From contig CM055110.1 of NCBI GenBank assembly GCA_029204225.1, positions 43,890,612 to 43,954,611 of the forward strand: DNA of 64,000 bases, read 5' to 3'. The translations under genes were made by a program, and so were the position numbers. Shown in pieces: positions 3,140 through 62,783 of the stretch. Within the stretch, counting starts at the first letter, position 1; each line of letters begins with the position of its first letter. The DNA comes from Diphasiastrum complanatum (taxonomy: Eukaryota > Streptophyta > Lycopodiopsida > Lycopodiales > Lycopodiaceae). The notes under the pieces are model-generated. The model had not been told where the DNA came from. It did no database searches and saw only the letters and a list, made by a program, of their open reading frames with translations.

Positions 3140-4622
3140 TCCTTTGCACCATCATCAATAAAGAGAGGCTGAAGCCTTGCCCTAGCTAGTATACTCAAGA
3201 TGATTTATTGTCTGAATCTGTACACCTGGCTTGATGTGTACTCAGGAAGTGTAAACTGCAAAATAGAACATTCATGTATTAATAATGGCTAAAAACATCA
3301 ACAAAATAGAAAACTAATCATGATTCCAAAAATAAGAATAAACAAAATTTATTACCTTAGAAATATCAACATCTTTCTGAAGGTTGAACCACTCAAAAAA
3401 TAACTTGGCATTGTATAACGTGTACCACCCACAGCTGAATGAATCATTTTGCTGTGGTGACTGCAAAATAATTCAGCACAAAAGAAATCAATTATGAAAC
3501 AGAATGAATTAGAATGAAACAATTACATTAGAATACTGATTTCAATATGCTATTAAGAAAGACAGAGTTTACCTCCAAACTCACGATCTCCCAGTCCACG
3601 AAATGGGGAACATCTATAGGAATATATCTACTTAAATATGACAGATATATATCTACATCCTTATGCGTATTTTTCGCCGAATTCATCTTGACACAAAAAC
3701 CTTTGATACTATTATTTATAGATCTCTTAATAGAGATCAGGTTTAAACTCCAGTGGTCATTGCAAAATAAGATTGAAAGTACTTTAGCGGCAATTTTGAG
3801 AACTATTTAAATTGAAAATGTCAATGTTAATGCATAAAACAGGAAGAAGCACTTAATATATCTTACTTGGTATGATAAGGAATGACCAGATACTTTGTTG
3901 CTGGTGTGAATCCACTTGTTAGACACTATGACAATGTGTCATTATTCTCCTTGAAGGCCTGGAGCAGAAAGTTACTCAACACCAGCAACTCATTTGATGA
4001 ATCTCTTGCAATGTCAAATTGCAAGAGTGTCAACCCAGACTCTATCACAGGATCACTGATAGAAGTCCATCTGTCTTTGAGATCCAAGCAATCTAAAACT
4101 CTAAAATTATTACTAAAATCAAGTTCATCTAGTCTAAAATAAAAAGGAGTACCAATTTTATCTATAGCATCCAATATGTCTTTCTCAAATCTAAGATACT
4201 CATCCGAATCTATTTTTTTTTTTTAAATTTGGAGGAGGAGGAGGAGGTGGATGTGTATTATCTACAAGAATTAAAGCGGTATCCAAAACAATTGTAGCTA
4301 TATTTACAGCATTATCAACAACAACGTTATCTACAATTGATTCTGGATCAGGTTTCACAGAATCTGTGGTGTCTACAATCTTTGCTTTCTTTGGAGCTCT
4401 CTTGGGGCCACTCTGCTTCCTAGGATGCTTCGTAGGAAGATCAGTCCTATCTACAGGTGTTGGCCTGGGAGCAGAAGGCTGAGATACGTTTAACCTACAG
4501 AACCTACCCCTCATTCTCATCAGGAGCTGAAAATCCAGGGGCATTATTGTGACTCTCTTGAAATGAATGGCAAGCAACAATGAATCTTCAAAAGGTAATC
4601 TTCAGCAGCCTCCTGAAGGCAC
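3140..4622 (-). pseudogene. CATTAG element gene C, copy 1: H3/CENH3-like fold + Ulp1-like protease, 5' end lost
   Basis: Reading from 4622, the frame holds LQEAAEDYL (4618-4592), then after a small deletion an H3-type LAIHFKRVTIMPLDFQ block with RMRG. A basic and proline-rich linker follows (to about 4203). A conserved region ends in LVIPY near 3880. The next exon has the Ulp1-type catalytic pair His-Trp (3755-3750) in NDHWSLNLI. The following exon has Gln-x5-Cys (PQQNDSFSCGWY, Cys at 3433-3431). The last exon has YRFRQ near 3220. Spacing and order match C48 proteases, though the usual Asp-Ser is Asn-Ser (KMNSA). The histone tail and promoter are missing: a copia LTR begins at 4623 inside the histone fold. 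Confidence 0.75.
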
Positions 4623-5437: not shown

Positions 5438-6134
5438 TGGTATTAGAGCCTACCTAAGGTTACCATGCATTTTGATCCATTTGAGTGAAAACTATTCATC
5501 AATCTTGAGCTAGAAATTGTCAAGGCCCATTTTCCTAGCTATCTTGTTCAATTTTGGATCAAAAGAGATCAAAGGACATTGATTGGGTCTGACCTGGTAC
5601 TGTACGGAATCAGGTGCTCAGACACGTGTGAGGAACATCCAATTTCAGTTTGGGAGTTCTCTTTCATGTTTGATCCAAAAATCTTGCTAGATGGCTTGTT
5701 TTGAAGCTATTTTTGTCTAGTTTCTGATGCAATCAATTTCATTCCATTTGGTTGAGCCAATCAAAAGCTATAAGCTTTTGAAGAGGGTTAGGTAGGGCAC
5801 CTAGACCTGGGTGAACACATTTGGTTTGGTCAAAAGATTGTTTGCTTGATCCAAAATCACAGTTGAATGCTTACCAATCTCATCTATATGTGATCTAGGC
5901 ATTGTTTTGAGATCTTAGCCATTTTGTTTCATGCAATATCATTGTATTTGAGTCAAATTTGGTTTCTTAGTGTATTTCACACGTGCTAAGAGTGTTTGAT
6001 CCTAACCTAGTCAGAATCATCTCACAGTTTGTTGCAAGATCTTGCATAGGAGATGGTAGCACACCATTATTGGATCCTATAGTGAGAGAGGAGCAACATT
6101 TTTTGTTCATCACTTTTATTTATCTCCACTTTAC
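5438..6134 (+). promoter_or_regulatory. Copia-A primer-binding site and untranslated leader
   Basis: TGGTATTAGAGCC at 5438-5450 is one base off the standard copia primer site complementary to initiator Met tRNA. The following 680 bases contain no long frame and match the leader at 7883-8626, apart from a short segment near 8440-8505 that is missing here. Confidence 0.85.
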
Positions 6135-7049
6135 ATGACTTCAATGAGTTCATACTTGTTGCAACCAAGTGAGAGATTGTCTACTTCCAATTATTCAATA
6201 TGGAAGTTGAGGATGGAGTCCATCTTGATACTCCAAGATGTGATGGACATTGTACTTGGGATTGAGGAGGAGCCTCAAGTCCTTCAAGAAGTACAAAAAT
6301 ACAAGAAGAGAGCTAGGATGGCTCTCCACTACATTAAGATGAATGTCTCTAATGAGATATTGAGGGAGATTGGTGATTGTTCTACATCCAAGGAAGCTTG
6401 GGATTGTCTCAAGTCCATCTATGAGACTAAGAACACCTCTAGGCTCCTCACTCTTAGAAATCAGATATTCCAAAGTAGTCAAAAGAGTGATGAGAGTGCA
6501 TCTAATTATGTTTTGAGAGTCAAGGATATTCATAGGGAGCTTGCATGTATTGGTGACTCAATCAATCAAAGTGAGCTAGTCCAAGTCATTCTCAATGGCT
6601 TGAGAGATGAATATGACAACCTTGTCCAATCCTATGCTATTAAGGAGGAGCTACCTAGTCTGGAGGCCCTTCAAAGTGTGCCTATTTCTGAAGAATCAAG
6701 ACAAGAGTACAAACTCTTGAGGATAAACACGCTATCACTCAATCATGATGATTGCAAAGTTCTATTTGCCAAGCACAAAGAGAGGAGTAAGAAGCAACAC
6801 CATCACTTCTCTAATGACAAAGCTAAATACCAAGATGGAGAGGAGGAGGATACCTCTCATGCTTCTACTTCAAATCTCAAGAAGAAGAAGATCAAGTGCT
6901 TTTATTGTGGCAAGAAAGGCCATTATGCCACCAATTGCTTCAAGAAGAAGAATCAACTCAATCAAGCCAACATCACCAATGAGAAAGAAGACTATATTGC
7001 AAGTGATGGAGAAGGCTCTCTTATGGCATCAAGCCTCTCCTCTTCCACC
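6135..7049 (+). CDS. gag: Copia-A gag, 3'-truncated
   Basis: Starts at ATG 6135 (MTSMSSYLLQPSERLS). It is a UBN2-type copia Gag: SNYSIWKLRMESIL near the N-terminus, CLKSIYE and LRVKDIHREL in the middle, a Lys-rich stretch, and a zinc knuckle CFYCGKKGHYATNC (CX2CX4HX4C) at about residues 255-268. Gag assembles the cytoplasmic particle. The frame runs straight into the next LTR at 7050 and stops inside it at 7073, so protease, integrase and reverse transcriptase are absent. This copy could only move with help from an autonomous relative. Confidence 0.9.
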
Positions 7050-7869
7050 TGTGAGAAATTGGCAAAAATCTAGCTTGGTATTTTTTATGATAGAAGTTTG
7101 TAAGTGAATCTCACATGTGTGGAGGATGTTCCCACGTGTGGAGAATTGTAAAGTAAATCAAAATGTTTGATATAGGGGTCTCATAGAATTTCATACTCAA
7201 GCATTTAGGTGTAGGATGTTGATAGGGTCAAATTTGGCATAGATGGCAAATTATCCATTTCCACTTGTAATGCCACTATTGAGCCTAAATAGAGCCAAAC
7301 TTGTGCCAATTAGAGTGTAGACAAGTGTCATGCTTTTGTTTGATGAAGCTTAAGAGGTCCAATAGGATTTAGAGGTGGAACCTTGTGAGGTCCAATAGAA
7401 AATTGAGGTGTGCTTGAATATAGTCCAATAGAATTTAGAGGTGCATGGATCAATGGTCCAATAGGATTAAGAGGTGGCAAAGTGTGATCCAATCATAGTT
7501 AAGCATAGTGGTAGCTCATGAATCTATTAGTATCATTGTACTCCTCTTTTTGGATCTAATTGATTTTGAGATTGAGTGGATTTTGAGTGTCATTGAATTT
7601 CTAGCTTTCTCTCTCTACCCGAGAGCTCTTGATGCATTTTCTCTCTCTACCCGAGGAGAGCAGCTTGTTTTTACTTAGATTATTTTTTGAATATTTCCCA
7701 CACGTGTGAGTGAGAGTTGGAAGTGATTGAATGCATGTAGTAGTGTGTTTTTGCCATAGAATCCAAGATTGATCTTGAATCTCAATCTAGTCTTGATCTT
7801 GGTGCATCTACACACCTTAGGAGATCACAAGTACATGTAGTGGACAGTCCACACGTGTGAAAATCAACA
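7050..7869 (+). mobile_element. Copia-A LTR, middle of tandem array
   Basis: About 820 bp, TGTGAGAAATTGG to AAAATCAACA. It joins the gag frame on the left with no polypurine tract and is followed by a perfect TGGTATCAGAGCC primer site. It serves at once as 3' LTR of the left unit and 5' LTR of the right unit. Confidence 0.9.
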
Positions 7870-16110: not shown

Positions 16111-16235
16111 GCATACAAGCATGGAGTTTGGATTAATTGTACATAGTATATAATACAATCAAAGATGAGTACTTTGCTTTGCTTCATAGAATCTAGTCAT
16201 AGTACTTTGATGCAACTGATTACTCTATTATTTTT

Positions 16236-18886
16236 TTGATGATGATATTGTATCATCTACATGTGGATATCCCTATTGATTTGGCACCTTTGCAGAGAAG
16301 AGGAGGCAAAGGAATTCAAATATCTGTTGAGGATCGTTCTCGTTACAGGGCAGAAGAAAAAAAAAACTTGGATTTGTGGATAGATGGAACATTATATCCA
16401 CAAGATCCAAGCACTTTGACACATCCTACGTTCTCTTCAATAACTCATTTAGTTACATGGATATGCAATGGACATAGTGGATTACTAGGATATTGTGAAA
16501 GATTGCAGAACCATGGAAAACAACTTTATATGAATAAAGTTCACTTTTTAGAAGGTGAGTTAATTTGGATATCCTCTTATTGTCAAAATAGAGATTGTCA
16601 TCTCCAAAAGACATTAGAAGAAAATGAACAACTTAAAGAAAATAATGAATCATTACAGAAGATAACAATCAATACCAAATCAGAACTAGAGCAAATGTAA
16701 TCAGTCTTACAGTCTATTCGTATTGAAAACTTACAATTATTGAAGGATGTAAATTTGGCAAAGAAGAAGGCTGAAAGTAAGAAGCGAAAGCGAAAAAGTT
16801 GCAAGGATATTCAAACGCTTTCAAAAGGAGGTTATCAAAATAGAAGGATCCGTGCATTCAAGTAAGCATATTCTGATTTTTGTAAGTTTTTCAATGACAT
16901 TTGGATTTAATTTCAGCTATGGTGATATTTTGTTAACTATCTGTTTTTTTTTGCAGATCTGCATTAGTAGATCCTCGGAATATTAAAGACAATGCTTCAC
17001 TAGGAATGTCATTGGGCACAATATTGACTTGCAAATCCACTGAACGTATCATGATGAACAATAGGATTTCAAATGTAAAGTGTAAAATAGCAGAGTCTTT
17101 GATGGTGGAAATTCAAATTTTTTTAGATAAGACTATAGTTCAGGGTGCTTGTGATTTTGCGGGTATTAGCAGGGAAGCATATGCAACAATATTTAAACTG
17201 ATTAGAGAAGCTTTTAAGCAAGTTCAAACTAGAAAAGTCCCAATCCCTAGCACATATCACTTGAAGACAGAGAGGGATACATTAAACATAGGTATGCATA
17301 AGATCACTGGAACTCCATTTCATATTGAGGAGGTGTATGAAACTGATGGAAGATCGATATTCTATAATTCATCAAACAATTTATTCGTTGATCTAAATTA
17401 CTTACTGAGATACATCGTCACATTCTATGATATAACCTATAAAAAGGTGAATGGCAAAATAATCATAGTACTTAAGTTAGATGAGTCAGAAATTATGAAA
17501 GGGCAGAAGATGGAGAGGGTTAGTATAACTCTCATGAATGGTGCTCTATCACAAACAGAGAACCAAGAAGATTTCAGATTCAGTGTCTAGTCAGAAAATG
17601 ATATATGGTGGTTGGCAGTGTTTCAGGTAACTAGCCTCATTATTACATTACATTCATTGAATAGTATTAATACATTGTAAATTAAGTCTGATTAATTTTT
17701 TTGACAGGTGCTAAAAGAGGATCATGATATATTATCATGGATATTCTCAAGGACATCTTATCCTAGGATCATTAAGGATCATATGGATGGAGGACTTCTC
17801 AATGTTCCAGGAGTTGGAGACTTCAATGTTGAATGGCACTTAGCAGGTGATTTGAAAACATTAAAATGTATGTATAATGTCTCTCACGGTGCTACATCAA
17901 AACACCCTTGTTTGTACTGTATGAAAATGGCAAAAGATGTAACTAGGAACATAGGAATTACTAGAGAATATGCAGATCCAAACTGGAAGCCTGTGCTGCC
18001 TATCCCCTTAAAAAATGTGCATGTTTGCACTCTTCATGCAAAAGTTAGATTAATAGAAAAGATCATTTATCTTCATATAGTTTTTGTTTTGAATACTAAA
18101 CCAGCATCATTAGCAAAGGAAGCTATCTCTCGATTAGAAGATGTTTTATCAAAAGCAGACTCCATAAAGGACATGTAAAAATTTAAAAAGATGAAAAGCT
18201 TTCAGGAAAGAATGGGAACATGCCAACTAAGCCAAGCATAGGAGGAGCAAAAGCACGTCGTTTCCTATCAAATCATATTGATAGGGCTTCTAATATTCAA
18301 CACTCAGTCTGGACAGATATTATTGCTGCTAATCAAGACTTCGAGAAAGACGGCAAAACCAGAGTGCTAAAGTTGATGTATGGAAAAAGGTTGATAGTAT
18401 GATTGCTATTTCAAGAAAAGAAAAATACTCTGATATTGATAAGAAAACTGTCCAAAGGACTTGTGTCGAGTTTGTTAATGCAGTATCAAAAGCATGGGGA
18501 GATGATCACATCACTCATTACATGGTTAGTATTAAATTCTTAAAATGCTTTCAAATTTAAATATATATTTAGATCCAAACATAAGACTAACATTATGATT
18601 TTGACATATGCAACACATACTAAGAGATCATATAACATTTTTTGCAAATACATATGGAAGCTTGAGTGTATGGTCATCGCAAGGGATGGAGAAGTCACAC
18701 TGGCAAGCACGAGCAGCATTTCATCGAAATATACAACATGGAGGAACCAATGAAAAACGAAACTACATTTGGCAATCGTTTCAGTGGTTCTACCGCAGAG
18801 TTCAAATTCGACATATAACAAAGTCCACACAATACAACAAGTTTAGAAAAGCATGCAAGTTCATACAGGAAGAGAAAATTAGATGA
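16236..18886 (+). pseudogene. CATTAG element gene D: DDE-type transposase candidate
   Basis: Multi-exon. Exon 1 (from ATG 16236 to about 16863) has LDLWIDGTLYPQD, SGLLGY, then a coiled-coil segment and a Lys/Arg-rich end before GTAAGC. Exon 2 starts near 16957 (SALVDPRNIKDN) and has QGACDFAGISREAY. It also contains a first acidic centre in LKLDESEI (Asp 17480). Exon 3 (17708 on) has LAGDLKTLKC (Asp 17849) and a CLYC zinc-type pair (17908-17920), then HVCTLHAK. The last exon has HILRDHITFF and SSQGMEKSHW (Glu 18689). The order Asp-Asp-CxxC-His-Glu suggests an RNase H-fold transposase with a zinc insert. In-frame stops at 16698 and 17588 and frame changes near 18190 and 18400 make it a relic. 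The superfamily is not settled. Confidence 0.7.
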
Positions 18887-21135: not shown

Positions 21136-21176
21136 CATTAGGGGATATTAGAACTCAAAATGGGCCCTTTGTCAAG
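21136..21176 (+). repeat. Copy 2 AB-side terminal inverted repeat
   Basis: Pairs with 29186-29226. The core CAAAATGGGCCCTTT is identical at both ends and the first ten bases CATTAGGGGA are identical. Confidence 0.85.
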
Positions 21177-21584
21177 ATGTTGTTTTTGACTTCACACGCT
21201 TTCAACGCTTATGTGTCCCAATGAATGGTGTCCATCTGTGATGAGCTGTAACAATGTTTGATGGACGAAAATTGTATTTAACTTTCCCAGCCAAATTTTC
21301 ATGATTTTCAAATATCCCGCCGGGTAGAACAAACAATTGTGATTGGACCACAGTTACTGCCCGAATACTCTTATGCTGCTCGTCATTGTTCACTCGAGGT
21401 TGATTTGACGTCAATAGTCATAAACTGTTGTTAACTAATCCTTGTAGTTAAGGAACTTTTTGTCATTCATAGGTATACCTCTCATTTTCTTCATTCTATC
21501 TCTCATTTTCTTGTCATTCTTAGGTTTACCTCGCAATCTCTACATTCTCTCCGATCTCAGCCTACGTACTCGTATTTTTTACTA

Positions 21585-22926
21585 ATGGCTACACATAATC
21601 GGAGACCAAGAGGAACCATTGATGCAATCAATATTTGCAATGAAAAAAATGCAGAAGATCAATGGATACCAAGAATATATCAAAAATATCAATGGATCTT
21701 GATGCATCCCTCTGCAAAAGGCTCATTCCAAAAAAGAAAAAGATCGGATAACATGTATAGAAGCTCTTGGAAAGGCTGGATAATGGATTTTTAAGTATCA
21801 CTTGCCGGTCAATCTATCATGGAAGTTGTAGTTCAACATGCTTATCTTCCCAATGAGCTCAACATTCATGATCAGGATCCAAATGATAGAAAAAAATGCA
21901 ATTGTAAGTTTTCATATTCAATTTTTTTGAATTTAGCATTTTCTTTAAATTATATTTTTCTTGAGATGTTTTTGTTGGTTTTGCATATTTGTATCCATCA
22001 AATTTCTTTGAATGGCAATCAGTTCAAGCGATTGCAGGAATAATCAATGTCATACATTCAGATATCGGTATTTTACAATATAAAAGTCGTTCTGCAAATC
22101 ACTTTTAGAGTCAGGAGTTTTTTTTTATGATCACACCTATTTTCCTGATAAAATGGCTTAGTTGGTAGATTAGAGCCATATCCTCTACCAGATTTTTCAA
22201 GTGAGGAATAGATTTCTCCTAATGCAGCAATTTCAGAAAGTTTTCGATCTAGGCTATATATTGATGTTCAGAGTATATTAAAATGTAGCACTGGATCAAA
22301 AAATAATAGATTAAGTTGGTATCTACCTTTTACTATTTTTGTTGATTTTTTTTCCAAATGCAATGTTCGGAGAACGAAAACAATGTTTATTTGTAAGGAC
22401 TTGAGTGTTGATATAATCGTCGAGTTGTTGGATGACGGTTGGGATACAAAACAAAATCAACAAGTTGAGTGCAGAGTATGTTACTCATCCATGACATTTA
22501 GATATCACATCGAAAAACAAATGCTCACTTTGCTGCTGAATCATAGAAGATGGATTAAATGCAAAAATGTTTGGAAGCCACTTGATCAAGATTTTGGTAT
22601 AAACCCTCAAGAGCAACTTCAGATAACAGTGAAAAGAAATGACAACATTCTTGCAATGTTGAGATCGAGGAAGATTGGTGTCTCAATCACATTCGATCAG
22701 AACTAGACATGTTGCAATTTGATCTACCTCAGTACTATCAATTTCGATTGAATGGTGTAAAGGTACGTTATGCCATATAAAAATATTTCTTTTTTTCTAT
22801 TTCTAAGTGAATCAGTTTCATAGAATACATAAGTAAAACAATTTCTTTGTGTAGGTAAGAGTAAGGCAGAAAAAGCATATAAAATACAAAGACATTGGAA
22901 TATCCATCGAAATTGAAGATCCATAG
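21585..22926 (+). pseudogene. CATTAG element gene AB, copy 2
   Basis: ATG at 21585 starts a frame with RRPRGTIDAINICNEKN, QWILMHPSAKGSFQKRKR and, after an in-frame stop (21792), AGQSIMEVVVQHAY..KKCNC, with a GTAAGT donor at 21904. Exon 2 begins near 22021 (QAIAGIINVIHSDIG) and contains FVDFFSK.., TMFICKDLS, DDGWDTK and FRYHIEKQMLTL; several stops lie between 22100 and 22330. Exon 3 (about 22857-22926) encodes HIKYKDIGISIEIEDP and a stop. The three-exon structure is the same in copies 1 and 3. The function is not recognised. Confidence 0.75.
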
Positions 22927-23089: not shown

Positions 23090-25676
23090 AGCAAGATTCA
23101 TTGTCTCCTGCAGAAAATGCACTATCTCCATTGGGGAGATCTTCAGTCACTTGAACTCCAGTGACCACTACAATCGATGCTTGCCCTTTTTGATGTCTCG
23201 TATATATCGGTTGTATTTTTGGTCTTCATTGACTTGGTCTGTATCGTCCTTGTCTTGGCATATTTGGATATGTTCAGAAGATGAACTGATGAAAGCTTTG
23301 TTGTAACAAATCTAAGTTTGTTCCATGTTTGGATTGGTTGTGGCAAAGGTTCGATAAGATCATCATTCTGAACTTATCCAAAAAAAACCCATGGTAAAGA
23401 CAAGGCAGACCAAGGCTATTAAAAAACAAACATGTCAAAAAACCGTAGAAATTAATGATGAATGAATCATAACCTGAATTAATAACAGGAAAAAAAACAA
23501 GTAAGAACAACCATAGAAAAACTGCAAGTATATTTCTATTAAAATTTTCTGTACATGTGTCTCATCCACATCAAGTGAGACGAATATTTAAACAGAATCA
23601 ACTATCTATGATCTCTAAATCCATTTCTCCAATTAGAAGTAGCTTGGGTAGAGAACACTCGACCACTGCAACTGGATATAAATTTTTGATCACAAGCTTT
23701 ATGGTCTCTTGTCTGAAATGCATTATCTCCATTGGGGAGACCTTCGGGCATTTAAACTAAAAAAAATTATAAACACAGTTTAATGTAATTAATCAAAGAT
23801 CAGTTAATAGGAGTTTGTATATGAAAAAAACACAATTAAAAGTAATTAATCGAATATTACCTCTTCTAGATTTGGAAGTCCATCTTGTAATTCAAGCCAA
23901 TTAAAAAAATGTTTGGCATTGCATACAGTATACCAACCACAACTGACGAAATCAACCTGCTGGGAGGACTGCAGAATCCAAATTTGAACATTATGAGATA
24001 TCGGATCAACGCGTAGGATGTAAGAATAAAATCTACAACGGAAACAAGCGCACGTCGAACCGATATCAAAAAATTTTGATTGAATATCGGATCAGCGCGC
24101 ACATTGGAAAAATAAACCAATCAATAACTACAAGGGCACGTCGAAGCGATATTGAAAAATTTATACCTCTGCATCAACCATTTTCAGCTTCGAGTATGCT
24201 TTTGCATTTGGTACTGGAAAGAGTTCCAGTATTTTCTGTATATGGGTCCTGGCAATTTTGTGTGTGTGTAATAGAGTTCATTTTAAAAACAAACTAGATT
24301 ACACACACCCTCATCATTGACGTACAAGGACAACACATATAAGCTCTAATGATCACTGAAATCCAAAAACAAGAAATTTATGAGAATCAATGTGAAATCA
24401 AAATTCATATGAAAAATTCAATAAAATAAAATCTGAAAAATAGACACTTACTTTGTTATGTATGGCAGCACGAGAATTGGAGTCCCCAGTCTGACGTATT
24501 GGAGCATATCATCGTGCAAGCTTTTGAAATCAAGGAAATCAAATGCTGTCATAAATTGAAAGGGAAACAATGTAACATCTATAAACAATGGAGTCTGAAA
24601 AAACTCCATCCAGTACTGAATTGCCCCACCTCCTGCATTGTTCCCTAGTATTTTATCCCTACTTTCTAATTTACCAGTATCTAAACTAGAAAGGGGGAGA
24701 CCAACATTGGTCTTCGGCATCCTAAAACTATATTGAGGACCTAATACTTTAAGATATGTGTTTAACAATTGGTCATAGTGTACATATTGAGAACTATTTA
24801 CAAAGGCAAGTGCAGGGGGTGACGGAAGTAACACTAATAAAACACATAAAGAATTGTCATTCAAGATTGATTCGACCTTTACACTAACAAAATCATCTAA
24901 ATCGCTTCCAACAACAGGAGGAGAGGAACTAATATTTATGGGTTTAGGAGGAGGAGGAGATTTAGGAGGTGGAGATTGGTTAGGAGAGGAAGATTTAGTA
25001 GGAGAAGTTAAAGATGGAGTGGAAGGAGAAGAAGGAGACTTAGGAGGAGAATTAGGAGGAGAATGCCTAGAAGAAAGAATAATATTCAGAGGAGATGGCT
25101 TGGAAAAATCCCTCGCTTTAGATGGAGGGTCGAGAGACCTCCTCTTATTTGAAACACTCCCATTCTGTATACGAATAACAAGCCCGGTTGGTTGAGATTG
25201 CTTTCGTTTTCTCCTCTCTGAATCTTGTTTTGGAGGAGAGGAGGGAACAGGTCTAAAGTATTCAACAAACTTGTCATATGTGTCTCGAAGCCTGAACACA
25301 ATGTTGAAATCCTTGGGCATGATGGTTACCCTCTTGGCATGGACAGCTGCAACAGCAGTATCAGAAAAAAATTTCACCTGAAAATCCTCATATGCTATGT
25401 GCAATGCTCAATTGTCATTACTGTCCATCTCACATCTGTAGATAGACTTCTTGTCACCTGCCTGATGGACCTCTATATGTGAGATTTTGGAATCAGAAGA
25501 TTGTTTGTCTTTTGAAGCTTCCGAATATCCTTGAGCCAGGGTGGGTCTCTTCTTCTGCCCCTTGGCCTAGGAGGAGGTGGTGGTGGAAGAGGTGGTGGTT
25601 GTGGATTTCCCTGACCCGCACCTGAAATTGGTATTCCACCTTAATGCCCTCGTGCTGTATGCTTGGTCCATGCCAT
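23090..25676 (-). pseudogene. CATTAG element gene C, copy 2: H3/CENH3-like + Pro/Ser linker + Ulp1-like protease
   Basis: ATG at 25676 gives MAWTKHTARG, close to the H3/CENH3 start MARTK. After a stop and a Gly/Pro-rich tail come LKDIRKLQKTNNLLIP (H3 alpha-N; NLLIP is CENH3-like) and, through frameshifts, RWTVMT and the fold end FFSDTAVAAVHAKRVTIMPKDF (about 25370-25293). A 120-residue Ser/Pro-rich linker follows. A conserved block ends ILVLPYITK at 24448. The protease part has His with its Trp changed to a stop (24350-24345), KMNS, and Gln-x5-Cys in QQVDFVSCGWY (Cys near 23940). The final exon appears twice, about 23590-23755 and 23090-23165. Confidence 0.75.
23990..24160. repeat. GATATCGGATCAGCGCGC-type iterated motifs in a C intron
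   Basis: Four related motifs in 170 bases: GATATCGGATCAACGCG (23998), GCGCACGTCGAACCGATATC (24048), ATATCGGATCAGCGCGCAC (24085) and GCACGTCGAAGCGATATTG (24135). They alternate in orientation and stand out by GC-rich cores in AT-rich DNA. Related motifs recur at 25685-26480 and 62850-63580. Confidence 0.7.
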
Positions 25677-26569: not shown

Positions 26570-27587
26570 TAAATAGGACTAGTTCTCTTCCATCTGCATC
26601 TTCTGTTAATCAATTAACTCTACTTGATGTTCCTTTATATTTTGTAAATAATGAATGTTATATTTCATTTAATGATATATAAGATGTATTGAATTTGAGA
26701 GAGGATGAAATCCTCTCAGTTTTTGCTCAAAATTTATCAGAATTTTTTGACATTGTTGAATACTCATATGATGACCTTGAAAGTGAGATAGATTATGATA
26801 AAGATGGCAATTGAAAATCTGGCAATGAGGCCTTGGAGGCCATGATTGAAAAATCTAAAGCCTATGAAAAGACCTTGCCTACAGAGGAGAAATTTTTGGA
26901 ATTTCAAAAAAGATATCCCCCTAGGGCTAGATATATCCCCTCTGGAAATGTAGAGGCCATTGGAGGACATGACATTAGCAGAGCAAACGTCATTGATTAT
27001 AATAATTATAATCTGGTAAGTAGATATTATATTGGTATTGATATTGATCAGTTTTTTTATTTCTTATTCGTATTGATATTGTTCAGTTTTCTTATTGAGT
27101 TTGTAGTGTTATGTATCATTCTAAATTTATTTTCTTTTCTCGTTTATAGGATGCTATTGAAATAAATGCCTTTGGTATGAGACATGGAGGCGTCCGAGGT
27201 GTATCAACTGGGAGAAAAGATGTTTCTCTATCTCGTTATTTGAAAAACTTTCAAAATAATGAGATTTGTATATATCATTCATCTTATAATCCATATGCAA
27301 CCACTGTCATTATGGCCATCAAATCATTATCAGTTTGTTTAGGAGGCCATAAGTACGCAAGAGGAACATATAAAATAATTTTTGTGAAGAGAGATTTGAC
27401 TATTAAGATATTGGGTTATACTCCCAATGAGACTACCAAAAGATCATCTGCAATGGCCCTTTATTCGGGTTACATTGATATGAGTAAGAAAAAAAAATTA
27501 GAATTTTTGAATCCATATGAAAAGAGATTATTCCTTCATGAAAATACCATCTGTCTGAATCTTGAAGAGGATGATGATAAAAATTAA
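26570..27587 (+). pseudogene. CATTAG element gene E, copy 2
   Basis: Exon from about 26570 reads SSASSVNQLTLLDVPLYFVN, then REDEILSVF, SEFFDIVEYSYDDL and, after a stop near 26812, EALEAMIEKSKAYEK and PTEEKFLEFQKRYPP up to a GTAAGTAG donor at 27016. The second exon (27150-27587, after TTTATAG) has RHGGVRGVSTGRKDVSLSRY, MAIKSLSVCLGGHKY and KIIFVKRDLTIKILGY, ending in an acidic tail. The second exon is open throughout. It overlaps the remnant of D tail to tail. I do not recognise the family; conserved LGGHK and KIIFVKR blocks recur at 19021-19310. Confidence 0.7.
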
Positions 27588-27589
27588 AT

Positions 27590-28830
27590 AATTTTCTGTA
27601 AAAGATTTTTGATATATTACAAGGATCTCTCTTTTGTAATGAATTCGAATGTCTTTCGAAATATCATTGAGCTCACCATATTCTGATTTGTATAATTCAG
27701 TTATATGAAGTGGTTGGCCAACTACTTTGAACATTCCGTCATTATAGAAATTTCTAGGTAATCTTACCCGATATGGACACGGAAGATTAATTTTCTTCAC
27801 CATCACTTGGGAAAAAGCTTCTTTAACTATTCTAAAAAAAATAGAATAAGCATTTCTGCTCATTCCAGATACATCACATGCACCTTGTATCACATTCGCA
27901 TCCAAGTATGATTGAACCTTAATCAAAACAGTCTCTACAATTTCATTTTTCATTTTTCAAACCGAGCATTTTTTATCATTTTCTTTGCTGACTTTCTTGG
28001 TAAAACATGACTTAAAGATGATCCAATGCATGAACAATCTGTTAAATAGTTCTTTGCCACCAAACATGATCTGCAACAAACATATGAAACTCAAATTATG
28101 TTTAATAAATAAATAATCCATGTTATCAAGTGCAAATCAAACTTAAATGACATATACAAATCAAATAAACAGTTTAGATGACAACATACTTAAATGCTTG
28201 GATTCTTTTTTTTTATTGCCGCTATGTGTAGATAGGTCATCAATATTCTTCATCGGTACTCTCTTTCTTTTTCTCTTCATCACTGCCTTATTGATCACTT
28301 TTAGATCAACAACAGATTTTAAACTCTCGGATCACAACTTTTCCATGGATTCTAATATTTCTTGGTTTGATCCTCAAAGAGTAGTGACAGTAGCATTCAA
28401 CTTTGACATAGCATTCTTGAGTGCATTGTTTTCAACACTAGTGTGTTGCACATAATGAAGCAATTGTTGATTTGCATGTTGCAATTGTTGATTAGCAAAC
28501 TGTAATTGTTGATTCAGACAAGATATGCTATGCATTCCAATATCTCGCAACCTTTGATAATATCCAAGTAATCCGCTATTTTTTTCATATACATATTTGA
28601 AAAGATGAGTTACGGACTTAAAATCTGGACACAAGTAGGTAGCTTGATCATTAGGATAAATTGATCCATCCACCCACAAATCTATATTCATATGATTATT
28701 CGTTCTCAATTCTCTAACTATTTCTCTACAACTTTCGCATTTTTCTTGATAATTGGAGTGCATTCCATTGAAAGAGCAACATGCAAATGGAACATTGCCA
28801 TTGTTAAAGCTACAATCATGTAAATGAATC
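27590..28830 (-). pseudogene. CATTAG element gene D, copy 2, N-terminal part only
   Basis: The first exon (about 28830-28374) has CESCREI, IDLWVDGSIYPND, KSVTHLF and SGLLGYYQRL, aligning with exon 1 of D at 16236, followed by a Gln/Asn-rich heptad segment (QQLQFANQQLQHANQQL) likely to form a coiled coil. The second exon (27953-27600) has VIQGACDVSGMSRNAY and GMFKVVGQPLHITELY. The Asp-Asp-Glu exons are absent; the frame reaches E after about 60 more codons. An internal deletion therefore removed the catalytic core. Confidence 0.75.
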
Positions 28831-29185: not shown

Positions 29186-29226
29186 TTTCTTAAAGGGCCC
29201 ATTTTGAGCCCATATTTCCCCTAATG
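29186..29226 (-). repeat. Copy 2 D-side terminal inverted repeat
   Basis: Reverse complement starts CATTAGGGGAAATATGGGCT. The CCCTTTAAG block matches the D-side end at 15665. A subterminal CTACGTAACCTC motif lies at about 29159-29171. Confidence 0.85.
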
Positions 29227-31808: not shown

Positions 31809-32285
31809 TGTTATGGCCATATTCGGTTAAGGACCTGGAATAGTCCTAATAGGGTAGACCAGCCCTCCAGTACTCGAGATTATTGGTCATGCCGTGATTT
31901 AATTCCATGTCAAGGCTTGTTTGTGACTAATTACCTTGAGAGGACCCAGACACTCTAATTGAGACATTTGGAGCATTGCATGTCTGTGTGACAGATATAG
32001 GCAGGAGGACTGCATGAAGAGATGAGACCTATTTATAGTTGACCTGCATGGGGGTTGCATGGTTTCATGCACAGGACTCTACTCTCTATATAAGGAGGTG
32101 GGGATTTTCCCTGTCGACATATTGGGTTTAGGTCACCAGGTTCTCTTCTCCTCTTGTTTCCCATGGCATGGCTTGGGGGCTAGGTCATGTTTTGATCTAG
32201 GATTGGTTGGGTGGCTTGGTTCTGTAGTCTCTCCTATTGTGTTCTTCTATCCTCATCTTAGAGGCAATCCTTTTGGGTTCTAACA
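31809..32285 (+). mobile_element. LARD 3' LTR, second copy
   Basis: 477 bp, TGTTATGGCCATATTCGG to TTCTAACA. A TATATAAGGAGG box near 32088 is a likely LTR TATA element. Copia-B pol sequence starts at the next base. Confidence 0.85.
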
Positions 32286-35226
32286 CGGAGACAACTCATC
32301 ACATTCGATTCAAGGTGAAGGAACAATCATAATCGAATTTCAAAAGGGTGAAGTCAAGTTGCTGTCCAACGTCCTCCACGTCTCAAATCTGACCAAGAAT
32401 CTGCTCTTAGTTAGCAAAATCATTGATTCAGGTCAGAGGGTCGAATTCGATGCAAATGGCTGCACCATACTTAACAAAGCTCAAAAATTTCTAGCTTTTG
32501 TGAGAAGAAGTGGCAACCTCTACAAACTTAGCAACTATTATTCTTCCAACATTCAAGCTTTTCACACTTCTACTTCCAATTCATCTAATATGCTTTGGCA
32601 TTTCAAATCAGGCCATTTGAATTTCAACAGTATTCAACAAATGTCAACTCAGAAACTAGTACAAGATCTACCTACTGTTGGCAAGCCAACTTTTTCATGT
32701 GAAAGCTATATAATCAGCAAGCATGCAAGAAGTTTGTTCTTTTCAGAATCAGTTCATACTTCCAAGGGCCTACTCGATCTTATACATATCAATAACTGTG
32801 GCCCGCAGACTGCTTCTAAAGGGGGAGCTCTATGCCTCCTAACCTTCATCAATGACTTCTCTCGAAGGACTGCAACCAACTTCCTGAAGAACAAATCAGA
32901 GGCATTCAAGTTCTTCACGTAGTTCAAAGCTTGTATTGAAAATCAGACCCAGAGGAAGATTGAAGCTCTACGCATAGATGGAAGGGGGGAATTTATCTCC
33001 ACCGAATTTAAAGAGTTTTGTAAGGCCAAAGAAATACATCAACAAGTCACAACAAGCTACTCACCTCAGTCCAATGATGTAGCTGCACAGAAGAATCGAA
33101 CACTTATCGAAAGTGCCAAGAGCATGCTAGCCCATGCCTCTCTTCCGAAGAAATTTTGGACAGAAATTGTTACTATAGCTGCCTAACTACAAAATTGATC
33201 CATCACCAAAGCATTGAATGGAAAGACACCTTATGAGTGTGGATAGGATCAAAACCATCACTCAAAAATATTAGAGTGTTTGGTTGCATCACTTATGCTC
33301 AGATCCCTGAAGATCTCAGGAAGAAGCTGGATGACAAAAGCATAAAATCGATTTTTGTTGGCTACTCCCTAGATCCCAAGGCATACAAGCTCTACAATCT
33401 GGAAACAAAACAATCATTCACAAGCAGAAATGTCATCTTTGTGGAAATTCGATTTATCAACTACAAGGGGAAAGCTCAAGAGGTTTCTGATCCAAGTATC
33501 GAAATTTTTTTTGATACAGGTATCAAAAATAACAACAGGATCGAAAATCAAGAAATTGATATAAACTCATAAAATGAGACAGAACCTCAACCAGATGAAT
33601 CACATTAGGGGGTCGAGACTCAACCAAGAAGATCAAATCGACCAAGACAACCTCCATCCAGATTTATGGACGATGTAGTCTGCTACTTCATTAAGAAACC
33701 AAACACAATATCGGAGGCAATGTCTGCTGATCAATGGAAAGCAACGATGGATACTAAATTTGATTCTTTGATAGAGAATTAAACATGGACAGTCATTGAG
33801 CTACCAAAGGAGAGAAATCCGATTCCATGCAAATGGATATTCAAGACGAAGTACAATGTTGAAGGAATGCTAAATCGATATAAAGCCAGACTGGTCGCCA
33901 AAGACTAATTCTAGATTCTAGATCTGAATTATTTTGATACATTCAGCCCAGTCATCAAGCATGCTTCGATTCGTCTGTTACTCTCCTTTGCAACCGCAAC
34001 AGATCTCGGGGTCCATCAGATGGATGTCCAGACCGCAAGAGGAAATCTTTATGTCACAGCCGAAAGGATATGAGCTAAGGAATAAGCAACACCTTGTGTG
34101 CAAAATCCACAAGGCACTCTATGGTCACCTAGGGCCTAGTTCCAGAAAATCAACGCATTTCTTATTAAGAATGGTTTCATTCCAAACTCAGCAGACTCGA
34201 ATGTTTACTTTAAGTCTGTAACAAATTTCTTCTTCATCATCACTCTCTATGTGGATGATATACTACTATTCAATAACAATCTGAATTTGATGAAGAAAAC
34301 AAAATGCATGCTAGCCAAGGAGTATAAAATGACTAACATGGGTCCAGCCCACTATTGTCCTGGAATCAAAATCTTTCAATTTTGATCCAGGCGTCTGATT
34401 TTCATCAACCAGCAGAGATATCTCATAAACGTACTGGAAAAGTATGGAATGACCAACTACAAACCAAGTCTCTTTCCTATAGACCCTGGATTGAAGCTGT
34501 CAAAGGAACAAACAATCTCCTCAAACAAAGGCAGAAAAGGAGGAGATGAAGCAATATCTGTTTCACTCCATCATCGGCTCACTGATGTATGCAATGATTT
34601 GTACTCGATCCAACATTGTGTATTCAATCAGTTCACTTAGCCAATTCCTATCAAATCTAGGTCTAACCCACTAGAAATCGCTCACAAAAGTCATGAAGTA
34701 CATCCAAACAACCAAACATCTTAGCATATGTTATGGAGGCAGCCAACTTTCCAACATACTTGAAGGATACACATATGTGGATTGGGCAGGAAATATCGAT
34801 ACTAGAAGGTCTACTTCTGGTTTTGTATTTTTATACAATCAAGGCCCAATCTCATGGAACAGCCGAAAGCAGCCCTCAGTTGCATTATCATCAATTGAAT
34901 CAGAGTACATTGTTGTCACAAATGCTACAAAGGAGGCAATTTGGCTGAGGCACCTGCTAGCAGAAATCGACCTTGACGACCATATTTTGTGAAAACCAAA
35001 GCACCATAGCTCTCTCTCTTAGTTCGAGATTTCATTCTCAAGTAGCATATCGAAATCAGGTCTCACTATTTGAGAGAGAAAGTGCAAAGCAAGGAGGTAT
35101 CCTTAGTCTCCTACAGGACAGAATCAATGGTAGTAGAGTACTTCACGAAAGCTCTGTCAAAGGATCGCCATCTCAGATTCAATTACATGTTGAATCTGAA
35201 AATCAAAAGTCTTTGGAATCCACATT
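32286..35226 (+). pseudogene. pol: Copia-B pol, 5'-truncated and degenerate
   Basis: Order as in Ty1/copia: end of protease (NVLHVSNLTKNLLLVSKI) and GAG-pre-integrase (LWHFKSGHLNF) at 32359-32700; integrase core with FINDFSRR and YSPQSNDVAAQKN (32840-33110); integrase C-terminal region with SLKNIRVFGC and FVGYS (33240-33370). Reverse transcriptase follows with CKWIFKTKYN (near 33830), MDVQT (34020) and YVDDILL (34250), then RNase H with YVDWAG, SRKQPSVALSSIESEY and KEAIWL (34765-34950). Stops at 32922, 33183, 33571, 33782 and others and several frame changes make it dead. Gag and the protease active site are absent. Confidence 0.9.
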
Positions 35227-35380
35227 AAGGGGGAGTGTTGGAATTTGATGCTCAGCCTCAAGATCCGTTCAATAATGAGCATCCTGAAAAGCCAGAACAG
35301 AAGGTTCGAATTTCTGTTCAAGGGATCAAAAAATTTAAGATTGAAGTTTTCAGAATTTTTCGAGACTGGATCGACTCAAA
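35227..35380 (+). mobile_element. Copia-B polypurine tract and 5' piece of LTR
   Basis: AAGGGGGAG (35227-35235) followed by LTR start TGTTGGAATTTGATG, matching the LTR at 11374-10753 for about 145 bases. Cut at about 35380 by the junction to Copia-A gag sequence. Confidence 0.85.
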
Positions 35381-37924
35381 AGTGAGAGATTGTCTACTTC
35401 CAATTATTCAATATGGAAGTTGAGGATGGAGTCCATCTTGATACTCCAAGATGTGATGGACATTGTACTTGGGATTGAGGAGGAGCCTCAAGTCCTTCAA
35501 GAAGTACAAAAATACAAGAAGAGAGCTAGGATGGCTCTCCACTACATTAAGATGAATGTCTCTAATGAGATATTGAGGGAGATTGGTGATTGTTCTACAT
35601 CCAAGGAAGCTTGGGATTGTCTCAAGTCCATCTATGAGGCTAAGAACACCTCTAGGCTCCTCACTCTTAAAAATCAAATATTCCAAAGTAGTCAAAAGAG
35701 TGATGAGAGTGCATCTAATTATGTTTTGAGAGTCAAGGATATTCATAGGGAGCTTGCATGTATTGGTGACTCAATCAATCAAAGTGAGCTAGTCCAAGTC
35801 ATTCTCAATGGCTTGAGAGATTAATATGACAACCTTGTCCAATCCTATGCCATTAAGGAGGAGCTACCAAGTTTGGAGGCCCTTCAAAGTGTGCTTATTT
35901 CTAAAGAATCAAGACAAGAGTACAAACTCTTGAGGATGGACAAGATATCACTCAATCATGATGATGGCAAAGTTCTATTTGCCAAGCACAAAGAGAGGAG
36001 TAAGAAGCAACACCATCACTTCTCTAATGACAAAGCTAAAGACCAAGATGGAGAGGAGGAGGAGGATACCTCTCATGCTTCTACTTCAAATATCAAGAAG
36101 AAGAAGATCAAGTGCTTTTATTGTGGCAAGAAAGGCCATTATGCCACCAATTGCTTCAAGAAGAAGAATCAACTCAATCAAGCCAACATCACCAATGAGA
36201 AAGAAGACTATATTGCAAGTGATGGAGAAGGCTCTCTTATGGCATCAAGCTTCTCCTCTTCCACCTTCAACAAGGATGACTCATGGTATATTGATAGTGG
36301 AGCATCTTCACATATGTGTGGCTCCAAGCACTTATTTTCATCTATTATGTCTTATGATGGAGTCAAGAAGACCATATACTTTGCAAGTAAGCATGAGTGC
36401 AATATTGAAGGAGTAGGGATTATTCCCTTGAAGCTTGCATCTTCTAAAGATCTCTTTCTCAACAATGTTCTTTTTGTCCCAAAGCTTACAAAGAACATCT
36501 TAAGTGTTGGCCAACTTCTTGATAGTGGCTTTGATGTCAATTTCAATATTGACAATTGTGTGATTAAGAAGGATGGTGAGATACTTGCATATGGATCAAG
36601 ATTTGAAGGCATCTACAAATTGGATCCAAGTGAGAGTGCAAACTCTCTTGATGTTTCTTATATTTCCAATATTTCAAAGGAGGAGGATTACACAAGATGC
36701 ACATATCTTCTCTCTTCAAGTATTATGGTGTATGATTATTCCTTATTATTCAAAGCATATGTTGAGAAGAAATTCTCATTGAAGATCAAAGCTTTGAGGA
36801 GTATTGGAGCTCTTGAAGGAATAGCACCATATGAAGTTTTATTCAAGATGAAGCCTAAGGTTGATCACCTTATTGAACTTGGTAGTGCTTGCTTTGCACA
36901 TATTCCCTTGGAAACAAGAAGGAAGGATGATCCAAGCTCATGGATCATGATTGGATACTCATCCATCAAGGAGGCCTTTAGTGTCTTTACACTCTCTATT
37001 TCAAATGTGATGGTGAATAGAGATGTCATATTGCATGAAGATTCAATCTTGGAAGTGGCCGAGATCAAGGCTTCTCAAGAAGCATCACAAGTTATCCTTT
37101 TTGAAGGTATTCAAGTTATGATGGGGCCAATGTGTGAGGAGGAGTTTCTTCTTCATATGATTTCAAGAAGATCTTCAAGATGCATGGCCGAGTCTTTATG
37201 GCTCACCTTACATGGCAAAGAGGGGCATCTTTCATGTTGTATCTACTACAACACATTCATATATGCTTCTCTTCCTTTGCTTGAAATGCTATCTTGCTTC
37301 ATTGAATTTTTTGGATCTCAAAGTTCAAGAAAAGCTATACTAGTTTTGTATGATGCTTATGGTATGGACATGTTTCTTGTCATTATTGACTTAGATGTGT
37401 TTCCAATACTTTTTGAAAGCAAGATATTGTATTGTCAAAAGTATGCTCTTGGTTCTAGTAAGAACAAGATTGAGCTTGGTACTCACTTTTTTGAAAATCA
37501 TGTTTTCACATGTTTTGAGGCAAATTGTAAACTCCTCTTGAGATTAAGTGAAGCATCCAAAGTGGACACTTACATCCTTGAGAGAGTAACTAGCCTAAAA
37601 AAGATCAAGATAGTCTTTGATATCAAGATTAGATCCATCATGGATATAGTTCATTGTATGTGGACTAGTCAAGCTAGAAAGCATAATCTTGATAATCATC
37701 ATTGTTTCACATCTTATGATCTTGATCTCCATGATCCTTATGAGGCTTGGAAGCCTCAGATTTCTCTATTTATGGTGCATCCATCATGCAAGTGGAACTT
37801 TCAAGGAAAAGATCATCATCAAGCATGGAGGAAGCCCATGATAATAGTGGCATATTGGTGGAGCACTCTTCAAAGGCATTGGCAAGAGACCTCTTCCAAA
37901 GAGATCTTATCATGGATATGGTGA
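35381..37924 (+). pseudogene. gag-pol: Copia-A gag-protease frame lacking integrase core and RT
   Basis: One continuous frame broken only by a TAA at 35822 (Glu codon in the gag at 6135). The first 15 or so Gag residues are missing at the junction. It runs through Gag with zinc knuckle CFYCGKKGHYATNC (36114-36155) and protease WYIDSGASSHMC (36284-36319), then GAG-pre-integrase-like NVLFVPKLTKNILSV. It then jumps to an integrase C-terminal module (APYEVLFKMKPKVDHL, GSACFAHIP) near 36825-37060. No integrase catalytic core, reverse transcriptase or RNase H is present. The last 280 or so residues match nothing I recognise. The open length suggests a non-autonomous family that kept coding capacity. 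Confidence 0.85.
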
Positions 37925-59560: not shown

Positions 59561-59624
59561 TGAGTTCTCAAAGTTCTTCTTAATGTGGTAGAGTGAGAGA
59601 ATGACTTCACATCATTCTATGAGG

Positions 59625-60510
59625 TTGGTTGAATATAAAACATCGAACTGTAGAAGATCTAGCTGATAGTGGGATCGTTTTTTACAAATCAATGTACATT
59701 CTTGATACAAAAGAAAATTTTGGACAAATAGTACCAATTCCATTACCTAGTTTTGAAAGTGATGAATGGATTGCACCAGATGCTATAATTTCAGAATCAT
59801 TTCATTGCAAGATATATAATGATGTAAAAAATTCATTAAAAATGAGCACGAGATCAAAAACAGTCAAATTGAGTTGGTTTATTTACTTAAATATATTTGT
59901 GGATTTTTTTTCAAGTGTCAATGTACACAGAACCCCAACGATGTTTGTATGCAAAAATTTATCAAATAGTTTATTATCTGAACTTGTGGATGAAGGCTGG
60001 GACAAAAGATGAGATGGAGAAATAGAATGCAGAATTAAAATGTCTTCCATGTGCTTCCGTTATCAAATTGAAAAACAAATGTTGAGCTTATGCTTCCATT
60101 ATCAAAGATGAAAAAAAAAAAAAAAAAAAAGGTAAATGGGTGCCACCCGATCAAGACTTGGAAGCCAGTGGACATTCAAAACGAAAAAATATTGAAATTA
60201 TATACAATGATCTCATTTTGACATGTGTTGAGGTGGAAGAAGATTAGAGTCTAAACTACATCCGGCGGAAACTATTGTTCCTACAAGATGATGTACTTTC
60301 AGACTTCAGATTCATTTTCAATGGTAAACTCGTAAGTAACTGTAAACACTCAATCTTTTATGAATAGTTTCAATCAAAACTTTCTAATACAAACTCTGTA
60401 CTAATTGTAACTAACTTTGTATTAGTTTTATGCAGGTACATAAAAGACATGAGTTCGAGATTAAATGTAGAGATATTGGCAAAACAATCCAACTTATGAA
60501 AGAACATTGA
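59625..60510 (+). pseudogene. CATTAG element gene AB, copy 3 (exons 2 and 3)
   Basis: Exon 2 has TVEDLADSGIVFYKSMYILD, IPLPSFESDEWIAPDAIISE, SWFIYLNIFVDFFS, RTPTMFVCKNLS and GWDKR. After a stop (60009) come EIECRIKMSSMCFRYQIEKQ and, past an A-rich stretch, WVPPDQDLEASG..VEVEED and FRFIFNGKLV before GTAAGT (60330). Exon 3 (60436-60510, after TTATGCAG) encodes HEFEIKCRDIGKTIQLMKEH and a stop. Exon 1 is missing; a copia fragment and GC-richer DNA lie where it should be. Confidence 0.75.
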
Positions 60511-60711: not shown

Positions 60712-62783
60712 CTATTCAATCAATTTTCCTATATTTTCTTTATCAGTATTAGGAACTGATAAGGCAACATCTCCTTCTATAATCTCGCCCTCCTCTGTTT
60801 CGGGAAGGGCCTCAATGTCTTTTAAGACAAGAGAAATATCTGTTATAAAATTGTCTTCCTCTGTATTAGAAAGGACTTTTATTCTTTTTTTATCATATAA
60901 AATAAGACTTGCATCCTGAGCAACCTGAAAAGTTGTTAAGGTAGGAGCAGCTTCCTTTTGAGGGCCCTCGATTCCAAGTGCAACGCTTACACCGTACTGG
61001 GCATAGATTCTGATCAACTCTTGCCGAAATCTATATATATCATCAGGAGTATACGACTCAAGAGTGAATTGTCATCACAAAACACGAGAATCAGTAAATT
61101 ACAAACAATGATAGTAAAAAAATATGAATCAGAATGAAATGAACTACAAATGAGCAGAATATTACCTTTTCAATATCTACATCCACTTGTAAATTATACC
61201 ACTCAAAAAATAGCTTCGTATTGTACCAGACAAACCATGCACAACTAAAAGCGTCTTTTTGTTGTACACACTGCATACATAGAACGAAAATTAGTAATAT
61301 TATGATAGAAATTTTATTTATGCTATGACGATATATTTGAATTAAAAAAAAATACATGCATATCAGAGATAAATTGAATATACCTTGAGAGATCTAATGG
61401 TTATCTCTCCAATTGAAATTGTCGTTGTTTGTATTTTTCAAATGACATTATGAAATAGAGAATCAAATTTTCTATGTGTATTTGCAGCTGAGTTTAATTT
61501 TACACATAGAAAATTTGATACTCCCTCCTTATTTATCTTTACAAAAAGAATGTTCAGGCTCCAATGCCGACTGCAACAACCAAAATACAAATATCGATAA
61601 ATCCATATTTATGAAAAAATTTCTTACTTATTAAAGCAATGAAGCATGCAACAATCCAGATTTATTTTTATATGGAATCAAATAGAATTTTGCCAAATGA
61701 CTGCATTCGATAAAATAGACAGCCTTCTCAAAATTGGCTTCTTTCGCCTTTACCGCTTCCATGAAAAATGGACTAACAACAAAAACTATACCATGGGAAT
61801 TGAAACTAATACTATTCTACAGAAAAGAAACTCCGGCTTCTATTATTACATCTGAAATTTCAAAGGTTTTATCTTTCAGCTCGGCACAAAATTTAGGACC
61901 TAATCTAAAGCTTGTACGTGTATCTGGAAGAAAAAAATCAAAAAAGTTGTCAAGAAGATCAATTTTATTAGCTAAGTAGGTCTCGTATTGATTATAATGG
62001 CCAGAATCAAAATAAACTTGGGCTGGATCGTATGGAATTCTCACAAAAAAATTATGTACAGGGGGAGAAACAGAAGTGGAAACAATATTTATAGATTTTT
62101 CTGTTATTTTGTCGAGCTCCTCTTGGGTAATCAACACTTTTGGTGATGAAACCTACCGAGGAGTTGGACGAATAACATGAGGAGGAAGGGGTGACGATTC
62201 TCAATCTGAGTCAGATTCTCCAGCATCTGACTCAAAGCTCAAGAAGACATGGGGTCTCTTGGCCGGGATACGTCTAGGAGGAAGGGAAGCAGTTGGCCTT
62301 CGAGATCCAACCTTCTTGGGGATAGGTTGTTTCCTCTTCCTCCTAAAGGTAGTAGGCAAGTCGGATCTATCTAGAGGCAGGTCTCTGGAGGTGTTGGCAT
62401 TATCAACATGCAGACCAGAATATCTGTCCCGAAGCCTTTTGAGATTGACGAAATCCTTTGGCATGATGGTGACACGCTTTCCATGCACTATCAAAAGACA
62501 AGTATCCTCAAAAAACTGGGATAGAAAATCTTCTCCAACATCCTGTAAGGTCTGCATGGCTGTCACAGCAAAATGCACATTCAACCCAAGTGACAGAGTG
62601 ACATTCCATTCAGATCGACCGAAAGGAGCTCTAGGATCAACAATTCAGTTGATCTCAGAGTTTTCTGATCTCCCATAGCCATGACCAGCTTCCTGCCACT
62701 ACCTACGGCCAATACCAGGGGGAACACGGGAATGGGATGGTTGTACAAGTGGTTATTCGGGCAGTGGATTTGGTCCTAGCCAT
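60712..62783 (-). pseudogene. CATTAG element gene C, copy 3: H3/CENH3-like + Ulp1-like protease
   Basis: ATG at 62783 gives MARTKSTARITT, the H3 tail start with Lys4 kept. Through frameshifts come QKTLRSTELLILEL (alpha-N), then LNVHFAVTAMQTLQDVGEDF and LSQFFEDTCLLIVHGKRVTI with MPKDF (62545-62440): the H3 core helices. A basic linker with KRKQP and RRPTASLPPRR follows. The next conserved block has YNQYETYLANKIDLLDNFF and FRLGPKF (to about 61817). The protease part has His-Trp at 61566-61561 (HWSLNILFVKI), KLNSAANTH, then VQQKDAFSCAWF with Gln-x5-Cys (Cys near 61243). The last exon, YTPDDIYRFRQELIRIYAQY to a stop at 60712, carries an acidic tail. Stops and frameshifts remain, but all protease landmarks are present. 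Confidence 0.75.

Follow-up and report, generated by a model that had tools for sequence, protein, structure and literature searches.

Results and Discussion

Organization of the locus

The window, i.e. the whole stretch of 64,000 nucleotides of Diphasiastrum complanatum analysed here, contains three copies of a gene (gene C) which, as judged from its sequence, almost certainly connects an H3-like histone through a long linker with a C48 protease of the Ulp1/SENP type in one transposon gene. The three families were named by open reading frames of the window, all on the minus strand: F1 (24451-25407), F2 (62204-62644) and F3 (4203-4601). Exon 1 of the F1 copy (24452..25676, minus strand) covers the H3-like tail and fold, a Ser/Pro linker and the first part of the C48 domain, and is interrupted by stops and a frameshift. 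Exon 2 (24167..24355, minus) contains the region of the catalytic His, with a stop after DH, and is broken before the Asn-Ser site; exon 3 (23861..23968, minus) includes SSQQVDFVSCGWYT with Gln-x5-Cys. The preliminary description had placed this gene at 23090-25676. The ATG at 25676 was retained, the last demonstrable exon ends at 23861, and exons down to 23090 are possible.

The F2 copy (61166..62783, minus) starts with an ATG at 62783; its exon 1 extends to about 61661, exon 2 (61570-61384) contains RHWSL...KLNS and exon 3 (61270-61166) QQKDAFSC, and a probable 3' exon (60715..61071, minus) is predicted from an open frame alone. The F3 copy (3380..4622, minus, with approximate borders) is marked by HFKRVTIMPLDF near 4556, DHWSLN at 3758 and QQNDSFSC at 3454, on the same strand. 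Stops or frameshifts break all three gene C copies of the window. An Rfam search of the window gave no match. The common order of parts that had been noted earlier for the three copies was upheld, while their treatment as copies of a single family had to be given up in favour of three diverged families.

F1 is a DNA transposon, with inverted repeats at both ends and many copies. The 35-bp repeats have CATTAG ends, begin with CATTAGGGG at 21136 and finish at 29226. With three or fewer mismatches the left repeat (21136..21170, plus; CATTAGGGGATATTAG...) had 1071 matches in the genome and the right one (29192..29226, minus) 1230, some sites possibly being counted in both, since left and right patterns are alike except for four bases; the reversed patterns, which served as controls, had 0 in both cases. 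A full F1 element (L044+L045) measures 11.3 kb between exact ends and carries genes B (plus), C (minus), D (plus) and A (minus). The F1 element of the window is 8.1 kb long, with gene B at 21435..22703 (plus), gene D at 26815..27584 (plus) and an internally deleted gene A at 27531..28829 (minus), of which longer relatives are found at L036, L037 and L044+L045. Genes B and D are open frames with approximate borders; Pfam gave no match above cut-off for B, including its L027 homologue, and none for D, searched as its L036 homologue. Another gene A, of an F3-type element, lies at 16203..18175 (plus) and has the candidate catalytic Asp sites KLDES and AGDLKTL, and the F2 copy has its homologue of gene B in an open reading frame at 59623..60081 (plus; 59735-60081 matches 2158-2504 of the window at 73%).

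Genes C and A, taken as co-located when their listed matches were at most 15 kb apart, kept a fixed order on one strand in 18 of 19 F1 pairs (0.32 expected by chance) and in 16 of 18 F3 pairs (0.39 expected), some of the pairs being duplicated regions. The term transposase-like for gene A refers to gene order, candidate Asp-Asp-Glu sites and copy number only; no Pfam transposase model matched it, and BLYB stayed below threshold (0.0011, in a search whose input letters were a composite). Pfam does hold a KDZ (Kyakuja-Dileera-Zisupton) model. We regard gene C as accessory to a group of DNA transposons that have inverted-repeat ends and several genes, the others being B, D and the transposase-like A.

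Target-site duplication was not seen at five sites (four distinct exact-end pairs and the window copy). Exact inverted-repeat ends of this kind (window 21136/29226; L044-L053) without such a duplication are unusual for a DNA transposon.

Elsewhere in the window, the stretches 35825-37921, 32284-32919 and 6060-7070 (all plus) were noted, which we take to be fragments of Copia-like LTR retrotransposons; some stretches, among them 6167-7050 and 35380-36266, exceed 95% identity to each other. A 413-codon open frame at 54419-55657 (minus) presumably resembles an aminoglycoside-phosphotransferase-like protein.

Identity of the two halves and the exon plan

The Pfam Histone model matched the window reading frames of F1 (9e-7) and F2 (2.6e-9), and that of F3 under the family cut-off (1.8e-4). 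In phmmer searches of solved structures H3 chains were found at 8e-7 (F1) and 1e-9 (F2). Spliced genomic copies gave Histone matches of 5.4e-16 (L027, F1), 4.8e-23 (L022, F2) and 1.7e-16 (L012, F2). A profile of the histone half matched H3 among the solved chains at about 5e-30 over positions 1-119 (in the best 60 of 179 matches), and the F3 histone matched H3 chains at 2.3e-26. By these comparisons the histone half is assigned to the H3 family, its predicted fold having its best match to H3 among the solved histones. The single-sequence AlphaFold model of the F2 reading frame was poor (pLDDT 46.8) and was set aside. The half shares with H3 and CENH3/CENP-A the histone fold, the MARTK-type N-terminus (F1, F2) and the HAKRVTIMPKD region, but its tail is shortened or proline-rich, Lys9 and Lys27 are gone and a protease is fused to it.

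In case of the protease half, Pfam Peptidase_C48 matched the spliced F3 copy L102 (7.7e-8, 32.9 bits, cut-off 20.7) and the joined F3 pieces of the window (5.1e-8); the F2 copies L022 (0.0043) and L012 (0.071) stayed under cut-off, and the spliced F1 copy L027 had no C48 match. A five-row protease profile found SENP2 (5.1e-6), SENP8 (1.7e-5), SENP7 (0.0044) and Ulp1 (0.016), the best unrelated chain being at 0.16. By profile, the half is thus assigned to the Peptidase C48 (Ulp1/SENP) family. The whole-genome Pfam C48 search gave three matches, none of them at the window copies (150 of 520 candidates were scored); this search reads exons singly, and the protease domain of gene C spans three exons. 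Besides the profile match, the likeness to SENP2, SENP8 and Ulp1 comprises His-Trp and Gln-x5-Cys, and the His, Gln and Cys of the catalytic set are aligned and invariant. Gene C differs from SENP/Ulp1 in its N-terminal histone, in several more residues from His to Asn than in SENP2, and in an Asn in place of the triad Asp (in all five rows as read, and in seven of seven when two unclean rows are included in the alignment), so that protease activity is not assured.

Exon 1 holds the whole histone and the first protease part, and is open in L017, L019, L020 (F1), L022 (F2) and L102 (F3). Exons 2 and 3, separated by GT-AG introns, carry the remaining protease: exon 2 has the (D/R)HW motif (DHS in L027) and Asn-Ser, exon 3 QQ-x-D and the Cys. 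All three exons are stop-free in L027 and L102. The introns were placed by GT-AG borders, reading frame and homology, the exon joins being predicted. The L102 protein, spliced as read, also matched Pfam Histone (1.2e-24, 87.3 bits, cut-off 26.4). Since both domains exceed their cut-offs in this single protein, it supports the fusion, and it confirms the order proposed in the preliminary description, an H3-like start and fold followed by a linker and the protease. The H3 and C48 matches expected there were found above background, and no separate histone and protease genes were seen among the copies read, exon 1 being open across the junction in five.

Copies in the genome and selection

In the 1.745-Gb assembly (5176 contigs) at least 125 F1, 150 F2 and 150 F3 matches were obtained (every candidate that was scored, out of 12959, 6342 and 5304, respectively), including duplicate regions and small contigs. 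Gene C copies are dispersed in hundreds on many chromosome-size contigs, and many of them carry stops. The earlier view that the fusion is repeated, and hence no accident, was substantiated by the three diverged families, by the fixed order with gene A in F1 and F3, and by the Pfam and profile matches.

Sequences at C19:44009606-44014201 and 44039540 are 96-100% identical to gene C of all three families in the window and to its F1 gene A. Such near-identical copies about 0.1 Mb from the window point to recent local duplication of the stretch.

Between single representatives of the families, pN/pS of the histone fold was 0.43 (F1×F2), 0.54 (F1×F3) and 0.37 (F2×F3). For the same pairs the linker gave 0.76, 0.89 and 0.79, and the exon-1 protease part 0.65, 0.62 and 0.55, values that may be raised because these parts align less well and pN can increase there. 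The fold was the lowest of the compared exon-1 parts in all three family pairs, at pS of 0.77-0.86, which is near saturation, and identities of 40-58%. Eighty F1×F2 copy pairs agreed with this (fold median pS 0.81, pN 0.35, 49% identity), and exon 3, which bears the Cys, came next after the fold (59 F1×F2 pairs, pN 0.38, 39% identity). As these comparisons indicate, the histone fold is kept by selection between families. Within F1 there was little constraint, dN/dS being about 0.71-0.73 in the fold (45 pairs) and 0.71 in the whole exon, and none in the tail (median 1.31, 25 pairs); within F2 the values were 0.45 for the histone (28 pairs) and 0.90 for exon 2 (26 pairs). This weaker signal within families is what would be expected if copies decay once they have inserted.

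The histone tail

The tail alignment comprised 20 rows (11 F1 and 9 F2, L007 and L008 being near-duplicates), of which 17 were readable. Lys4 was present in all 17 readable tails and Lys9 in none, and the places of K14, K18, K23, K27, K36 and K37 were without lysine; F2 has a specific lysine directly ahead of alpha-N. Forty further tails, chosen unseen, were fetched by a pattern requiring Thr-Lys, which makes them informative for Lys9 alone and not for Lys4; Lys9 was found in 0 of the 28 that were readable. Of six F3 loci two had readable tails, in both of which place 4 is Lys and place 9 Asp. The canonical modifiable tail (K4, K9, K14, K18, K23, K27, K36) is therefore not retained, K4 alone being kept in F1 and F2. 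Since Lys9, Lys27 and the other tail lysines are lacking, the element histone as predicted could not carry the main silencing marks. As the F1 tail is free of constraint, the loss of Lys9 could be due to drift.

Within the F1 and F2 rows Lys115 and Lys122 were conserved in 20 of 20, Arg116 and Thr118 in 19 of 20. We take these four to be residues facing the nucleosome dyad.

Proposed role of the gene C product

Selection on the histone half suggests that the elements make a chromatin-acting factor of their own, perhaps directed against silencing. With somewhat less than even confidence, and by analogy, we propose that the gene C product may be an anti-silencing chromatin factor which combines H3-like docking with a SUMO-type protease. 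The histone half, which retains the fold, the residues that face the dyad and the tail end with Lys4, would enter, or dock on, nucleosomes over the element and would offer neither Lys9 nor Lys27. The tethered protease would desumoylate silencing factors, or rid them of a SUMO-like protein. Such a role would be comparable to that of VANC of the Arabidopsis VANDAL elements. Anti-silencing action of VANC proteins of these elements is described in the accessible part of one report (PMC5735166), and a review, as far as its available text goes, attributes hypomethylation of related elements to the Ulp1-carrying VANC (KIU) genes of Arabidopsis elements (PMC13317346).

A stronger version, which we consider rather doubtful, is that the elements encode a replacement H3 that presents Lys4, is unmarkable at Lys9 and Lys27, and when deposited over the copies would make them refractory to silencing, the protease stripping SUMO-dependent silencers at the same nucleosome. 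If the histone half does enter nucleosomes, mobile elements would edit host chromatin by supplying a histone and this would, if true, offer plant epigenetics a natural means of testing the need for H3 marks and SUMO in the silencing of a locus.

Origin of the histone half and alternative roles

The element histones of F1, F2 and F3 formed one clade (97/98; F1 and F2 alone 100/98), and by this tree the three families share one origin. It is unlikely, although conceivable, that the histone half is a target-site tether which puts the transposition complex on nucleosomes or CENH3-type chromatin, the protease freeing or maturing the complex. In the AU test, with provisional sequences for the CENH3 rows, grouping with plant CENH3 (p 0.401) was compatible with this, but grouping with H3 (p 0.108) was likewise not rejected. 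The elements and all CENH3 rows, again as provisional sequences, lay on one side of a branch with support of 89/93, which was not starred. The LLIP-APF, AED(Y/F) and KDF motifs of the element histones are probably in part common to plant CENH3. Loop 1 of CENH3 is longer than that of H3; F3 has one residue more near this loop, but F1 and F2 have the canonical H3 length. The exact left ends are also widely spread, extending, among 100 listed, over 2.9-74.2 of 101.6 Mb on C1 and 1.3-76.9 of 83.9 Mb on C2, which speaks against a tether.

A similarly low probability is given to the histone half being a mere DNA-binding module with a nuclear signal, the protease processing or regulating the element proteins B, D or A. 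Basic stretches in the histone and linker sequence would suit such a module, as would the Ulp1-type genes of plant MULE/CACTA elements, with which no histone is mentioned in the available part of the source (PMC2528002). However, constraint on the fold exceeds that on the exon-1 protease part in each family pair, and the Lys4 end persists in every readable F1 and F2 tail.

That gene C is passive cargo, a captured histone-protease chimera hitchhiking without function in the manner of the decayed H3 copies of a fungal hAT, seems very improbable. The many copies with stops, the F1 whole-exon dN/dS and the fungal precedent, as given in the accessible text (PMC6710886), agree with it, but the three diverged families have the same fusion and exon plan, F1 and F3 have the same gene A order, the fold retains its identity between families at near-saturated synonymous sites, and all three exons are open in L027 and L102. 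Chance similarity or an assembly artefact, which the broken single window copies and their modest E-values might have suggested, is refuted by hundreds of dispersed copies, E-values down to 1e-24 and control patterns with 0 matches.

Relation to known transposon systems

The proposed anti-silencing factor has partial counterparts in two groups of elements. KAONASHI/KIU (Arabidopsis non-TIR MULE/VANDAL) elements and the Ulp1 MULE/CACTA elements of melon, rice and grapevine have, as in the present case, a C48/Ulp1-type gene beside the transposase, according to the portions of the sources at hand (PMC13317346, PMC2528002). In both main texts, as available, the word "histone" occurs 0 times (PMC13317346, PMC2528002), whereas gene C has one. 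The KIU elements have no TIRs, whereas F1 has them, and gene A lacks a Pfam transposase match.

The H3-like genes of fungal hAT elements, in Pyrenophora tritici-repentis (H3L) and Pseudocercospora fijiensis, have been amplified inside a DNA transposon, as here, but they are separate reading frames with no protease fusion described in the available parts of the two papers (PMC3538342, PMC6710886). The fungal hAT elements have an 8-bp target duplication, in contrast to F1. H3L of P. tritici-repentis is said to fit neither H3 nor CENH3 fully (PMC3538342), and the repeat H3 copies of P. fijiensis are reported, in the part accessible, as inactivated (PMC6710886).

A histone-protease fusion in transposons was not found in the open-access PMC literature (without preprints). 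The earlier statement that no transposon gene joins Ulp1 to a histone thus holds for this literature, and needs the addition that H3-like transposon genes without protease are known in fungi, as the accessible portions of two papers describe (PMC6710886, PMC3538342). Ulp1-type and H3-like transposon genes being known separately, what did not turn up in this literature is their predicted occurrence in one protein, kept across three diverged families.

Other H3-like sequences of the genome

A degenerate pattern for MRKDFELARR of host CENH3, with at most two mismatches, had 0 matches in the genome. A 35-residue CENH3-like query gave 14 matches at 77-83% identity, followed by 136 weaker ones. Six of the 14 top matches were examined as candidates for host CENH3 (L038-L043) and rejected as canonical H3; L055 is a second cut at the place of L038. 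Three of the weaker matches were read (L056-L058); others are F2 copies, e.g. C2:45470368. A lone alpha-N-like exon was noted at C3:74791650-74791748 (minus, L056), beside which no further exon was recognised; by its sequence it may belong to a host CENH3 gene. Decayed H3-like sequence outside F1-F3 was also observed at C13:7091217 (L057) and C4603:6168 (L058), a third listed match being C3060:26076. L057 and L058 consist of a MARTKQTAR piece followed, about 0.8 kb on, by FLIPGAPFVRLVKEI ... FQESAEMYLTQLFEDTFLCVIHAK, and possibly represent another transposon-borne or host H3 variant.
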